From Rhodothermales bacterium (lineage in GTDB: Bacteria; Bacteroidota; Rhodothermia; Rhodothermales; UBA10348): a stretch of 64,000 nucleotides of DNA. The position numbers and the translations under genes were made by a program. Numbering within the stretch: position 1 is the stretch's first letter; each line of letters starts with the position of its first letter. A model generated the notes under the pieces. It was not told the origin of the DNA and did no database searches. It worked only from the letters and a program-made list of their open reading frames with translations. The stretch spans positions 62,001 to 126,000 of the forward strand of contig JAVJVN010000019.1 in assembly GCA_040221055.1 (NCBI GenBank), read 5' to 3'. Of this stretch, positions 51,910 through 56,241 are shown in pieces.

Positions 51910-53274
51910 ATGCGTTCTTTGTTCTGTTCCCTTGCCCTGCTCTTTACTCTCGGCTCCGCGGCCAGACCCGCCACTGCCCAGGCCACCCTTCCGCCCGACG
52001 ACAACGTCGAAAGGATCATTGAAGCCGCCATGGCGGACAGTGCCGCGTGGGACCGCCTGGCCTATCTGACCGATACATTCGGTCCTCGATTCTCTGGCTC
52101 CGCCAACTTGGAGCGGGCCATTGAATGGATTCAGGAGGAAATGAAGCGGGACGGACTTGAGAACGTCCGCGGAGAACCCGTCATGGTCCCGAACTGGGTC
52201 CGTGGCGACGAGAAGCTGGTCATCCTTGAACCCCACGAACGCGAATTGGGCGTGCTGGGGCTCGGCGGTTCCATTGGCACGGGTCCTGGTGGCGTGACCG
52301 GCGAGGTACTCGTAGTGAACTCCTTCGATGAACTCGCTGCGGCACCGGAGCGGGCGGTCGGGAAGATCGTGCTCTGGAACGTGGCCTTCACCTCCTATGG
52401 CGCGACCGTCGCGTACCGATCCCAAGGCGCCATCCGCGCGGCTGCGGCGGGCGCCATCGCCAGCCTGGTCCGGTCTGTCGGTCCGTTTTCCATGTATACC
52501 CCGCATACGGGCAACTCGGCCTACGATGAAAACATTCCCCGCATTCCGCACGCGGCCATCACGGTGGAAGATGCCATGATGATGCAGCGCATGCAGGACC
52601 GGGGGCAGACCATCCGGGTGCGCCTGGAGATGGATGCCCAGTGGCTGCCCGATGCGCTCTCGCACAACGTGGTGGGAGAAATCACGGGATCCGAGTTTCC
52701 GGACGAAATCATCGTGATGGGCGGCCACATCGATTCCTGGGATGTCGGTACGGGGGCCATGGATGATGCCGGGGGATGCGTCGTGGCCTGGGAGGCCCTG
52801 CGCATCATGAAAGATCTGGGCCTGCGCCCGAAGCGTACCATCCGGGTAGTCATGTGGACCAATGAAGAGAACGGGCTGAGGGGCGGCAATGCCTATCGGG
52901 ATGCTCATGAAGCTGAACTCGACAACCATGTGCTGGCCATGGAATCGGATGCCGGCGTGTTCAAGCCCATCGGGTTCGGGTTCACAGGCAGCAATCGGGC
53001 CTTTGACCTCATCCAGGCCATCGGGAAACGACTGGAGCCCCTCGGTTCTGGTACCATCACCCGGGGCGGAGGCGGAGCCGACATCGGCCCCATCATGCAG
53101 CGCGGCGTCCCGGGGATGGGGCTGAACGTGGACGGCTCGAAATACTTCTGGTACCATCACACGAACGCCGACTACGTAGACAAACTGGACCCCCACGACG
53201 TGGCCCTGTCCACGGCGACCATGGCCGTCATGGCCTGGTCGGTGGCCAACATGGACGAGAGGCTGCCCCGCTGA
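51910..53274 (+). CDS. Exported M28 zinc aminopeptidase (carboxypeptidase Q-like)
   Basis: A 454-residue protein with a signal peptide (1-22, FCSLALLFTLGSAARPATAQ). A PA-domain-like insert (about 90-210) is followed by the M28 catalytic core with ligands in VMGGHIDSWDVGTGAMDDAGG (His and Asp), WTNEENGLRGG (Glu pair), MESDAGVF (Asp) and WYHHTNADYVDKLDPHD (His). It releases N-terminal residues or splits dipeptides in the periplasm or outside. Start ATG 51910; an upstream ATG in frame gives a poorer signal. It ends 5 bases before the type III PKS gene, so it may be the first gene of that operon, though its function appears unrelated. Confidence 0.93.
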   Translation: MRSLFCSLALLFTLGSAARPATAQATLPPDDNVERIIEAAMADSAAWDRLAYLTDTFGPRFSGSANLERAIEWIQEEMKRDGLENVRGEPVMVPNWVRGDEKLVILEPHERELGVLGLGGSIGTGPGGVTGEVLVVNSFDELAAAPERAVGKIVLWNVAFTSYGATVAYRSQGAIRAAAAGAIASLVRSVGPFSMYTPHTGNSAYDENIPRIPHAAITVEDAMMMQRMQDRGQTIRVRLEMDAQWLPDALSHNVVGEITGSEFPDEIIVMGGHIDSWDVGTGAMDDAGGCVVAWEALRIMKDLGLRPKRTIRVVMWTNEENGLRGGNAYRDAHEAELDNHVLAMESDAGVFKPIGFGFTGSNRAFDLIQAIGKRLEPLGSGTITRGGGGADIGPIMQRGVPGMGLNVDGSKYFWYHHTNADYVDKLDPHDVALSTATMAVMAWSVANMDERLPR

Positions 53275-53279
53275 GCACG

Positions 53280-54416
53280 GTGCCGAATGCCCATATCGTT
53301 GGTTGGGGCACGGCCGTCCCGGCGCACAGGTATGCCCAGGAAGACATCGGTGCCATCCTCGGGCGCGATCTGGAGCCCGGGTCCCGCAATGCGCGGTTCC
53401 TGGATCTGATTTACCGCCAATCGGGGATTTCCTGGCGGCACAGCGTGATTCCGGACTGGCGGACCGGCAAGGCCGACGGTGTTTTCTTCAAGGGTGAAGA
53501 AGGCCGGTGGCTGTCCCCTTCGACGGGTGAACGGAATGCCATCTACGAGCGGGAGGCGCCCGGGCTGTTCGAGCAAGCCGCACGTCAGGCCATGGACGGG
53601 ATCCCACCGGAATCGGTGACCCATGTCATCACGGTATCCTGCACGGGCTTTTTTGCCCCGGGCCCGGACTTCGTACTGGCGCAGCGTCTGGGTTTGCGGC
53701 CGGGCGTGGAGCGGTATCATCTGGGATTCATGGGATGCTATGCGGCGTTGCCTGCACTGAAGATGGCGCGGCAATTCGTTCTGGCACAGGAGGATGCGGT
53801 CGTGCTCGTGGTATGCGCCGAGCTGTGCACGCTGCACCTCCAGTCCGCCGGTTCCTTGGACAGCATGATTGCTGCCAGCGTGTTCGCGGATGGGGCGGCG
53901 GCGACGGTCGTCGCCGCCGCCCCCAGGGAAGGGTCGTACCGGCTGGACGGTTTCGCCAGTTTCGTGGCCCCGGACAGCGAAGCCGACATGGCCTGGCGGA
54001 TAGGGGATCGCGGATTCGACATGATCCTGTCCACGTACGTCCCGGATATCCTGAAGGCCAACATCCGGGGGATTGTGGAGAGTCTGGGGTTGGCTGCCGG
54101 TGGCGGGAATGAGCAGGGATTGGTGGAAGTGGATACCTGGGCGGTGCATCCCGGTGGACGGGCCATCCTGGACAAGGTCACGGAAGGGCTGGGGTTGGAG
54201 CAGGGGCCCGCACATGGACCGGATGCAGGAACCGAAGATCCGCTGGCGCCCTCGCGGCAGGTATTGGACCGGTATGGCAACATGAGCTCGCCGACCATCC
54301 TGTTCGTGCTGGAGGCACTCCGGGCGCAACCCCCGAAAGGTCCGTCGGACCGGGTCTGTGCCATGGCGTTCGGACCCGGCCTGACGGTCGAAACCATGCT
54401 CTTGACGCGAACGTGA
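53280..54416 (+). CDS. Type III polyketide synthase (chalcone/stilbene synthase family)
   Basis: A homodimeric KAS-like enzyme of 378 residues that builds phenolic or pyrone rings from a CoA starter and malonyl-CoA. The catalytic triad is visible: Cys153 in GFMGCYAALPAL, His290 in AVHPGGRAIL and Asn334 in YGNMSSPTILFVL. The sequence VTHVITVSCTGFFAPGPD is also a family mark. GTG start at 53280. It precedes a methyltransferase (one to four base overlap) and a flavin hydroxylase, the same trio used for alkylresorcinol or alkylquinone lipids (compare Streptomyces srsABC). I infer a phenolic-lipid product; the starter acyl chain is unknown. Confidence 0.95.
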   Translation: MPNAHIVGWGTAVPAHRYAQEDIGAILGRDLEPGSRNARFLDLIYRQSGISWRHSVIPDWRTGKADGVFFKGEEGRWLSPSTGERNAIYEREAPGLFEQAARQAMDGIPPESVTHVITVSCTGFFAPGPDFVLAQRLGLRPGVERYHLGFMGCYAALPALKMARQFVLAQEDAVVLVVCAELCTLHLQSAGSLDSMIAASVFADGAAATVVAAAPREGSYRLDGFASFVAPDSEADMAWRIGDRGFDMILSTYVPDILKANIRGIVESLGLAAGGGNEQGLVEVDTWAVHPGGRAILDKVTEGLGLEQGPAHGPDAGTEDPLAPSRQVLDRYGNMSSPTILFVLEALRAQPPKGPSDRVCAMAFGPGLTVETMLLTRT

Positions 54417-55135
54417 TGCGCCGGCGCGATACCACGCTGACCGAGTTCATGGACCAACCGGATTGCGATCCGGACCGACTGGTCGCCACATTCCGGTCCT
54501 TTGGATCGGTCAATCGCCTGCTTTCGGGCTGGAACCGGGTCTACCGACGCGAAATCCGCCCCATACTGCGAAGCATGCCTGCCGGAGGGCCCGTGACGCT
54601 GCTTGACGTGGGTTGTGGGGGCGGAGATGTGCTTCACGCACTGGTCTTCCGCGCACGGCGGGAAGGCTACGATGTGCAAGGCACCGGCGTCGACCCGGAC
54701 CCGAGGGCCATCGCATTTGCCCGGGACCGGGGCCTGGAAGGCATCCGTTTCGTGGAAGGGCGCCTGGAAGACACGGACCTGGAAGCCGATATCGTAATTT
54801 CGAACCACGTCCTGCATCATCTTTCCGATCCGGAAGTGGCTGGGTTGCTTGTGCTTTCGCGGGAGCGGGCGCGCAGCGCGGTCATCCACAACGATATTGC
54901 CCGCAGCCGGACCGCGTTGGTGCTGTTCCAACTGCTCCGACCCTTTTATCCAGGCAGTTTCATCTGCGCGGACGGCACACGGTCCATCCGGCGCTCGTTC
55001 CGCCCTGCGGAATTGAAGGAGCTGGCCAGGCAGGCGGTGAAGGCGTCGAAGGCGGACGGAGGGTGGCGGCTCTTGCGCGCCGGACCATTCCGCACCGGTC
55101 TGGTCTGGACGGCCCGATCTGAGGCAGCCCAGTGA
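54416..55135 (+). CDS. Class I SAM-dependent methyltransferase
   Basis: A 239-residue methyltransferase. The SAM motif is VTLLDVGCGGGDVLHAL, the acidic strand-2 end is GTGVDPDPRAIAFAR, and motif IV-like DIVISNHVLHHLSD precedes a helix. The N-terminal extension (TLTEFMDQPDCDPDRLVATFRSFGSVNRLLSGWNRVYRREIRP) is a known cap region in this subgroup, which is often found beside type III PKS genes. It overlaps the PKS stop by one base (or four, if GTG 54413 is the start) and the next gene by four. Probable role: O- or C-methylation of the PKS product; inferred from context. Confidence 0.88.
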   Translation: MRRRDTTLTEFMDQPDCDPDRLVATFRSFGSVNRLLSGWNRVYRREIRPILRSMPAGGPVTLLDVGCGGGDVLHALVFRARREGYDVQGTGVDPDPRAIAFARDRGLEGIRFVEGRLEDTDLEADIVISNHVLHHLSDPEVAGLLVLSRERARSAVIHNDIARSRTALVLFQLLRPFYPGSFICADGTRSIRRSFRPAELKELARQAVKASKADGGWRLLRAGPFRTGLVWTARSEAAQ

Positions 55136-56241
55136 GTGGCCCGTCGGTTGGCATCGTCGGGGCGGGTCCGGTTGGCATGTATCTGGCCTTGCGCCTTGTC
55201 CGGTCGGGCTTCGATGTGCGTGTCTACGACGGCCGGCGCGAGGTCCGTCCCCACAGCCGGTCCATCGGCATCCATCCACCGGCTGTCGCCCTGCTGCGTG
55301 ACCTGGGTCTGGGGCCCCGGCTGCTGGAACGGGCGTGTGTGGTGACCGCTGGCCAGGGGTGGTGGAACGGTCGGCCCGTGGGCCGCGTGGCGCTGGATGG
55401 GCTCGGCAGTCCCTTGCTGACGCTGCCGCAGCATGAGACGGAGCAGGCCCTCCAGGATCTGCTCCAACAGGAGGCGCCGGGCGTACTGCGTCTGGGGGAG
55501 AAGATGTCGGAGTCGGATGTTGAGGCGCTGGCGTCGGATTCGGGAGTCGTCGTGGGGTGCGACGGCAGGAATTCCGTCGTGCGAAAGTGGGCTGGATGTG
55601 CCTGGGAGGGTGGTTCGTATAGTCTGTCGTACGTCATGGGCGATGCCCCGGATACGACGCCCTTCGGTACCGAGGCGGTCATCATGCTCGGACGGAAGGG
55701 GCTCGTGGAGTGCTTTCCGCTGCCGGGAGGTGCGCGGCGATGGGTGGTCCGGCTCATGGCCCGCCCCGATATGGATGCCACGCTGCGTTCGGTGCTGAGC
55801 TCGGCGGTGGCGGACAGGACGCCCTTCAGGATCCATCCGGCGGCGTTCACCATGACATCGGCCTTCGGCGTTGAACGCTTCGAGAGCCGGCCCATGACCC
55901 GAGGTAAGGCGTTCCTGCTGGGGGATGCGGCGCACATCCTGAGCCCCATTGGCGGCCAGGGCATGAACCTGGGCTGGTTGGATGCCGAGGCGCTGCACCG
56001 TGCACTGATAAGGTTGCGGGCGGGGAGCGTCGGGGCCGGGAAAATCGCAAACCAATTCGCCGGGGAGCGCCGACGCGTTTTCCGGGCGGCCGCGCGCCGG
56101 GCCGAATTCAACATGTGGATGGGGGCGGCGTGCGGGCCCGGCGGCGCGGCCGCCCGGCGTTCGCTCATGGCCGTCGCCTTGGCACCGCGCATCCGTGATG
56201 CCTTCTTGCGCCGATTCACCATGGAAGGGTTGTCTGCCTAA
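55132..56241 (+). CDS. FAD-dependent monooxygenase (PHBH-fold aromatic hydroxylase)
   Basis: A 369-residue flavoprotein. The Rossmann motif is VGIVGAGPVGMYLALRLVRSGFDVRVYD, the second FAD motif is VVVGCDGRNSVVRKWAG (DG motif), and the third is RGKAFLLGDAAHILSPIGGQGMNLG (GD motif). These three mark the p-hydroxybenzoate hydroxylase/UbiH group. The GTG start overlaps the methyltransferase stop (GTGA). In related clusters such an enzyme oxidises the phenolic lipid ring to a hydroquinone or quinone; that is my inference here. The operon appears to end here, 50 bases before the amidase gene. Confidence 0.9.
   Translation: MSGPSVGIVGAGPVGMYLALRLVRSGFDVRVYDGRREVRPHSRSIGIHPPAVALLRDLGLGPRLLERACVVTAGQGWWNGRPVGRVALDGLGSPLLTLPQHETEQALQDLLQQEAPGVLRLGEKMSESDVEALASDSGVVVGCDGRNSVVRKWAGCAWEGGSYSLSYVMGDAPDTTPFGTEAVIMLGRKGLVECFPLPGGARRWVVRLMARPDMDATLRSVLSSAVADRTPFRIHPAAFTMTSAFGVERFESRPMTRGKAFLLGDAAHILSPIGGQGMNLGWLDAEALHRALIRLRAGSVGAGKIANQFAGERRRVFRAAARRAEFNMWMGAACGPGGAAARRSLMAVALAPRIRDAFLRRFTMEGLSA

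Follow-up and report, generated by a model that had tools for sequence, protein, structure and literature searches.

We observed that three genes on the forward strand of the window, the whole stretch of 64,000 nucleotides that was analysed, follow one another with overlaps of a few bases. They encode a type III polyketide synthase (PKS), a SAM-dependent methyltransferase (MT) and a FAD aromatic hydroxylase (FMO), and are located as follows, together with the PKS codons discussed below.

53280..54416, + strand: type III PKS, predicted 5-alkylresorcinol synthase (378 aa; GTG start; PF00195 86.5 bits, PF02797 76.2 bits; AlphaFold2 pLDDT 91.3)
53736..53738, + strand: codon of PKS Cys153, catalytic (aligned with PKS18 and curcuminoid synthase)
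53994..53996, + strand: codon of PKS Trp239, at the position of CHS Gly256 and ArsB Trp281, the aldol/resorcinol determinant
54021-54023, + strand: codon of PKS Met248, at the position of CHS Phe265 and ArsC Met293
54147-54149, + strand: codon of PKS His290, catalytic (aligned as for Cys153)
54279-54281, + strand: codon of PKS Asn334, catalytic (aligned as for Cys153)
54413..55135, + strand: class I SAM-dependent MT of the PRK06202 family (240 aa; GTG start; NF004851)
55132..56241, + strand: class A (PHBH-fold) FAD aromatic hydroxylase, FMO (369 aa; GTG start; PF01494 134 bits)

The stop codon of the PKS gene (TGA, 54414-54416) lies within GTGATG, giving an overlap of 4 bases with the GTG start of the MT gene, or of 1 base with the ATG. 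Likewise, the MT stop codon (TGA, 55133-55135) lies within GTGAGTG and overlaps the FMO gene by 4 bases. The sequence-only reading had described three overlapping genes for a type III PKS, a SAM methyltransferase and a PHBH-type monooxygenase, and the coordinates, joins and family matches confirm this description. A single type III PKS in the genome passes the family cut-off. A promoter and terminator scan of the operon gave a result at chance level.

Five bases upstream of the PKS GTG, an M28 peptidase gene ends with its stop codon at 53272-53274, and its protein (PF04389), like the PKS, MT and FMO, matches a family model above the curated cut-off (Pfam/NCBIfam). The same reading had suggested that this gene may share the transcript. 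We consider it extremely unlikely that the peptidase acts in the pathway and is co-transcribed for that purpose: the gene also lies upstream of the triad in a congeneric genome (L121), but it is absent beside the triad in the eleven other family genomes that were read and in two Deinococcus loci. Since it adjoins the triad in the same genus only, and not in the family's other genera, the M28 gene is a neighbour and not part of the unit. In L121 (G001:C35:30811-31888), the FMO reads as two segments (residues 5-209 and 238-369) because of a frameshift, either in the gene itself or from the assembly.

The first protein of the operon has a complete catalytic triad, matches PF00195 and PF02797 above cut-off and adopts the chalcone-synthase fold, which identifies it as a type III PKS. 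Its Cys153, His290 and Asn334 line up with the active-site triads of PKS18 and curcuminoid synthase and are conserved in all 67 aligned sequences, so the triad was rightly read as complete. Also invariant in the aligned sequences are Cys121, which occupies the site of the second active-site thiol in bacterial enzymes, and His186, which is equivalent to CHS 197. The top PDB matches of the AlphaFold2 model are the Ectocarpus PKS, the long-chain enzyme PKS18 and other type III PKSs; the rank of PKS18 and the Ectocarpus enzyme among them argues for a phenolic-lipid pathway. At the tunnel positions the match to PKS18 is mixed, with Cys183 in common, His186 in place of Asn208 and Leu187 in place of Ala209. 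The readable residues do not specify how long the starter is, and the best NCBIfam match is DpgA (NF042429, 127.4 bits). Both points would suit a short-starter product of the acylphloroglucinol, tetrahydroxynaphthalene or 3,5-dihydroxyphenylacetate type instead of a lipid. We regard such a product as unlikely, because the DpgA score is far under the cut-off of 425 bits, the PKS has Trp at the 256 position where THNS has Tyr, the scanned neighbour genes include none resembling dpg pathway genes, and the gene make-up of the operon fits alkylresorcinol pathways.

We then considered the residues that govern ring closure, with equivalences drawn from the PKS18 and curcuminoid synthase alignments and from PMC6274091, and with ArsB and ArsC compared by description. 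The choice between alkylresorcinol and alkylpyrone depends on Trp281 of ArsB, the counterpart of ArsC Gly284; the W281G exchange switches the product of ArsB from resorcinol to pyrone, and Trp at this site pushes Met293, nine residues on, into the cavity (PMC6274091). The operon's PKS carries Trp239 at this position, as expected of an ArsB-like alkylresorcinol synthase, and Trp occurs there in 67/67 aligned sequences. At position 248, 56 of the 67 have Met and the other 11 have Ile, and the spacing of nine residues between this position and Trp239 equals that of the ArsC 284/293 pair. The assignment to CHS 256 and 265 was checked independently with curcuminoid synthase, whose Met265 and Gly274, equated with these two CHS positions (PMC6274091), fall on the Trp239 and Met248 columns of the alignment. 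Met at the Phe265 position is also reported for HidC-clade enzymes (PMC8086630), and Trp281 serves as the resorcinol marker for polyketide-quinone operons of M. smegmatis and Streptomyces with the order PKS-MT-oxidoreductase (PMC9927152). A large side chain at CHS 256 is found in small-starter enzymes as well (PMC6274091), and Trp239 is therefore evidence for ring closure, not for starter length.

Judged by these residues, the Trp239/Met248 pair supports a predicted resorcinol-type ring closure over pyrones. Several bacterial type III PKSs do make pyrones (PMC6274091), and PKS18 is among the top structure and sequence matches of the PKS, which would fit an ArsC/PKS18-like alkylpyrone synthase operon with a pyrone-modifying MT and FMO. 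We consider this quite unlikely, given that all 67 sequences have Trp at the cyclisation position, compared with Gly in ArsC and Leu in PKS18, and that a PHBH-type hydroxylase suggests a phenolic substrate. An unrelated, unannotated PKS from a Streptomyces plasmid, included as a contrast sequence, also has Leu at the Trp239 position.

The second protein, the MT, scores 245.4 bits against NF004851 (PRK06202), just above the cut-off of 243, and also matches the class I models Methyltransf_11 and Methyltransf_25. It carries the motif LLDVGCGGGD, and its D65 and G69 are invariant in 42 aligned sequences. A PDB search with the MT profile returned generic class I relatives only and gives no methylation site. 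The FMO contains GAGPVG near residue 10 (GxGxxG), the DG motif (D144-G145) and the GD motif (G264-D265), and its profile matches rifampin monooxygenase and polyketide hydroxylases. The best PDB matches of its AlphaFold2 model (pLDDT 94.6; two alignment rows from plasmid records were left out) are p-nitrophenol 4-monooxygenase, protocatechuate hydroxylase and PHBH. The three motifs and the PHBH fold place the protein among the class A aromatic hydroxylases (PHBH/UbiH group), and the resemblance to phenol-hydroxylating monooxygenases is a further argument for a phenolic-lipid pathway.

Gene neighbourhoods were read from BLAST-anchored positions. The PKS is present in 24 of the 27 genomes of the window's family, and of the three that lack it, two have a completeness of 74% or less. 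The FMO occurs in 80/146 genomes of the class, which belong to the window's family and families f17, f18 and f21, almost always as a single copy; among the listed genomes, none from other families of the order has it. Five loci from sister families of the same order were read, and here the PKS, where present, is of a separate branch and has no adjacent MT or FMO. Outside the family, we found the unit PKS>MT>FMO in Balneolota, in Actinomycetota, in Deinococcota, among them D. radiodurans, and in a single Armatimonadota MAG, and the three genes are thus kept together in at least five bacterial phyla. Of the 93 loci with a complete triad, some of which overlap within a genome, 91 show the order PKS>MT>FMO, and the two deviating loci are possibly ORF-calling artefacts. 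The arrangement is therefore not due to chance. Pairwise distances of the three proteins correlate with Mantel r of 0.85-0.89, a value reached in 0/999 permutations, although shared species history, whose effect the test does not remove, contributes. The joint rise of the distances speaks for the pathway proposed below, as does the occurrence of the FMO as a single copy in nearly all carriers.

In Deinococcus, Arthrobacter and Balneolaceae, the triads have the same order and the same three families, with proteins roughly 35-60% identical to those of the window, whereas the neighbour genes differ. The triad of D. radiodurans (M7777_RS15120-15130) is of the window type throughout. We found no characterised member described among the triads of these three groups, and none of the PKSs in the operon's clade of the tree (100 rows, support 97) could be linked to a product that has been measured, which counts against the pathway proposed below.

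Comparable operons have been described before. The srsABC operon of Streptomyces griseus and the pkqABC operon of Mycobacterium smegmatis, compared here by description, have the same order of PKS, methyltransferase and oxidoreductase and include a FAD hydroxylase step; SrsC is presumably a PHBH-type flavoprotein. The order of pkqABC is the same in its Streptomyces homologue, and both pkqA and the homologue from Streptomyces MNU77 have Trp at the ArsB 281 position (PMC9927152), as does the operon's PKS. The methyltransferases differ, since SrsB is an isoprenylcysteine carboxyl methyltransferase (ICMT; PMC6669644) and the MT of the operon is a class I protein of the PRK06202 family, not of the SrsB type; the earlier claim that the MT is unlike that of srsABC was right. 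Its parallel with srsABC stands as regards gene order and needs correction in one respect, in that the nearest described parallels also include hidABC (PMC8086630) and pkqABC (PMC9927152). With the Azotobacter system, the operon's PKS shares the aldol-enforcing Trp of ArsB and the predicted C2-C7 tetraketide chemistry, but the ars operon, unlike the one here, includes a gene for a fatty acid synthase component, ArsA (PMC6274091).

Methyltransferase, oxidoreductase and PKS are also combined in hidABC and in 58 planctomycete operons, and when planctomycete PKSs from operons of the order MT-oxidoreductase-PKS were expressed in C. glutamicum, they yielded pentadecyl- and heptadecylresorcinols (PMC10896814). 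The operon resembles hidABC, the hierridin operon of Cyanobium, in Met at the CHS 265 position, as reported for the HidC clade, in a FAD enzyme and in the order hidC>hidA>hidB. Three hid-like operons were read as stand-ins: Paludisphaera (MT-FAD-PKS), Roseomonas (PKS-MT-FAD) and Psychrobacter (MT and FAD genes facing the PKS). All three PKSs have Trp at the position of Trp239, and that of the planctomycete Paludisphaera shares the same W/M/H186/C183 set with the operon's PKS and stands beside an MT of the PRK06202 type. For the MTs of Paludisphaera, Roseomonas and Psychrobacter, the best model is PRK06202, with 232, 136 and 108 bits, respectively, all below the cut-off of 243. Their FAD enzymes differ from the FMO and have their best match, below cut-off, in the geranylgeranyl-reductase superfamily (TIGR02032-like); BLAST of the window's FMO against the Paludisphaera and Roseomonas FAD enzymes gave short motifs only and no full-length match. 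The three PKSs likewise branch outside the operon's PKS clade in the tree. With an MT of the hid-like family and a PHBH-like FMO, the operon, on the evidence of its proteins, would mix two known types, a hid-type MT and an srs-like hydroxylase class, the hid side being judged by the three stand-ins and the srs side by description. The closest parallels are srs and pkq for gene order and hid for the MT.

We consider it likely that the operon is a self-contained unit for a decorated alkylresorcinol membrane lipid, in which the product of the PKS is hydroxylated and methylated. The PKS-MT-FMO order and the tight joins of the genes point to such a pathway, and the reading of the locus as a phenolic-lipid operon parallel to srsABC, with an MT unlike SrsB, finds support in the order, the class I MT and the Trp/Met pair. 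In the proposed route, the PKS would take over a fatty acyl chain from a CoA or ACP carrier and add three malonyl units to give a tetraketide, which would undergo C2-C7 aldol condensation with loss of CO2 to a 5-alkylresorcinol. The PHBH-type FMO would then put a hydroxyl on the ring and the PRK06202 MT would methylate the ring compound, most likely by O-methylation; the resulting methoxylated alkyl-hydroquinone or phenol could oxidise to a benzoquinone. The ring closure has sequence support, and the tailoring steps are deduced from enzyme class and described relatives. By analogy, we infer a long-chain starter, the order of tailoring, the site of methylation and a role as membrane phenolic lipid or accessory redox carrier, with a quinone as a possible end product. 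Counter-evidence comes from the G. maris MT and oxidoreductase, which in C. glutamicum led to apparent C-methylation and no quinone (PMC10896814).

A hierridin-like product, a methoxylated and hydroxylated alkylphenol that forms no quinone and acts as a released or membrane bioactive lipid, is possible, although we do not favour it. Hierridin B has a C4 hydroxyl and two O-methylated positions (PMC10896814), hidC>hidA>hidB is one of the two known hid gene orders in cyanobacteria (PMC8086630), and the operon has its MT family in common with the hid-order Paludisphaera operon, with related MTs in Roseomonas and Psychrobacter. It is nevertheless at odds with the FAD enzyme, which is PHBH-like here and geranylgeranyl-reductase-like in the three hid-like operons, and with the place of the operon's PKS outside the branch of the hid-like PKSs.

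Two further readings were considered. A prenylated (agq-type) product made with a nearby prenyltransferase was rejected, as the genome's four UbiA-family genes all lie outside the 64-kb window; the weakest of them is on the contig of the PKS, ~64 kb away from it. MenA is present in the genome (185 bits, cut-off 102), so the product would not replace menaquinone and is unlikely to be the only respiratory quinone. A broader proposal, which we make tentatively and regard as rather doubtful, is that the triad represents a separate polyketide-quinone operon lineage, defined by a class I MT and a PHBH-type hydroxylase, carried by nearly all members of the window's family and common in Balneolaceae-type families, whose product would be a standing accessory membrane quinone or lipid beside menaquinone.

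A few model bacteria use alkylresorcinols and their quinones in their cyst and spore stages. Such lipids contribute to beta-lactam tolerance in S. griseus and to accessory electron transport in mycobacteria, while S. maiorica, a planctomycete, showed no growth or ampicillin phenotype when its PKS was deleted (PMC10896814); in Streptomyces there is a developmental switch from menaquinone to such lipids (PMC9927152). The combination of a PKS, a PRK06202 MT and a PHBH-type FMO was found described nowhere, nor did we find a pathway for such a lipid described in the literature on Deinococcus. If the triad makes such a lipid, this would be a mostly single-copy trait across whole Rhodothermia/Balneolia families and also in Deinococcus, and as D. 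radiodurans has this unit, the question could be addressed in a laboratory strain.

Several further observations concern the surroundings of the genes. A record labelled Vibrio cholerae strain 35D (WNZI01000046.1; L056:3149-6240) carries the triad, with a PKS that falls within the Arthrobacter branch, and is probably mislabelled or contaminated. In Desulfuromonadales and Verrucomicrobiales relatives (seven loci, by eye), the PKS stands beside an MMPL/RND-like transporter, a UbiE-like methyltransferase and YceI-like and small secreted proteins, without a PRK06202 MT, and this neighbourhood looks like a different lipid pathway. Upstream of the triad in Balneolaceae (eight loci, by eye), a MATE-like transporter and a large sensor kinase recur. 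The triad of D. radiodurans (L117:4998-10711) lies on a secondary replicon, with a glycosyltransferase gene and a phospholipase D-like gene close behind, and it is plasmid-borne in other Deinococcus species too.
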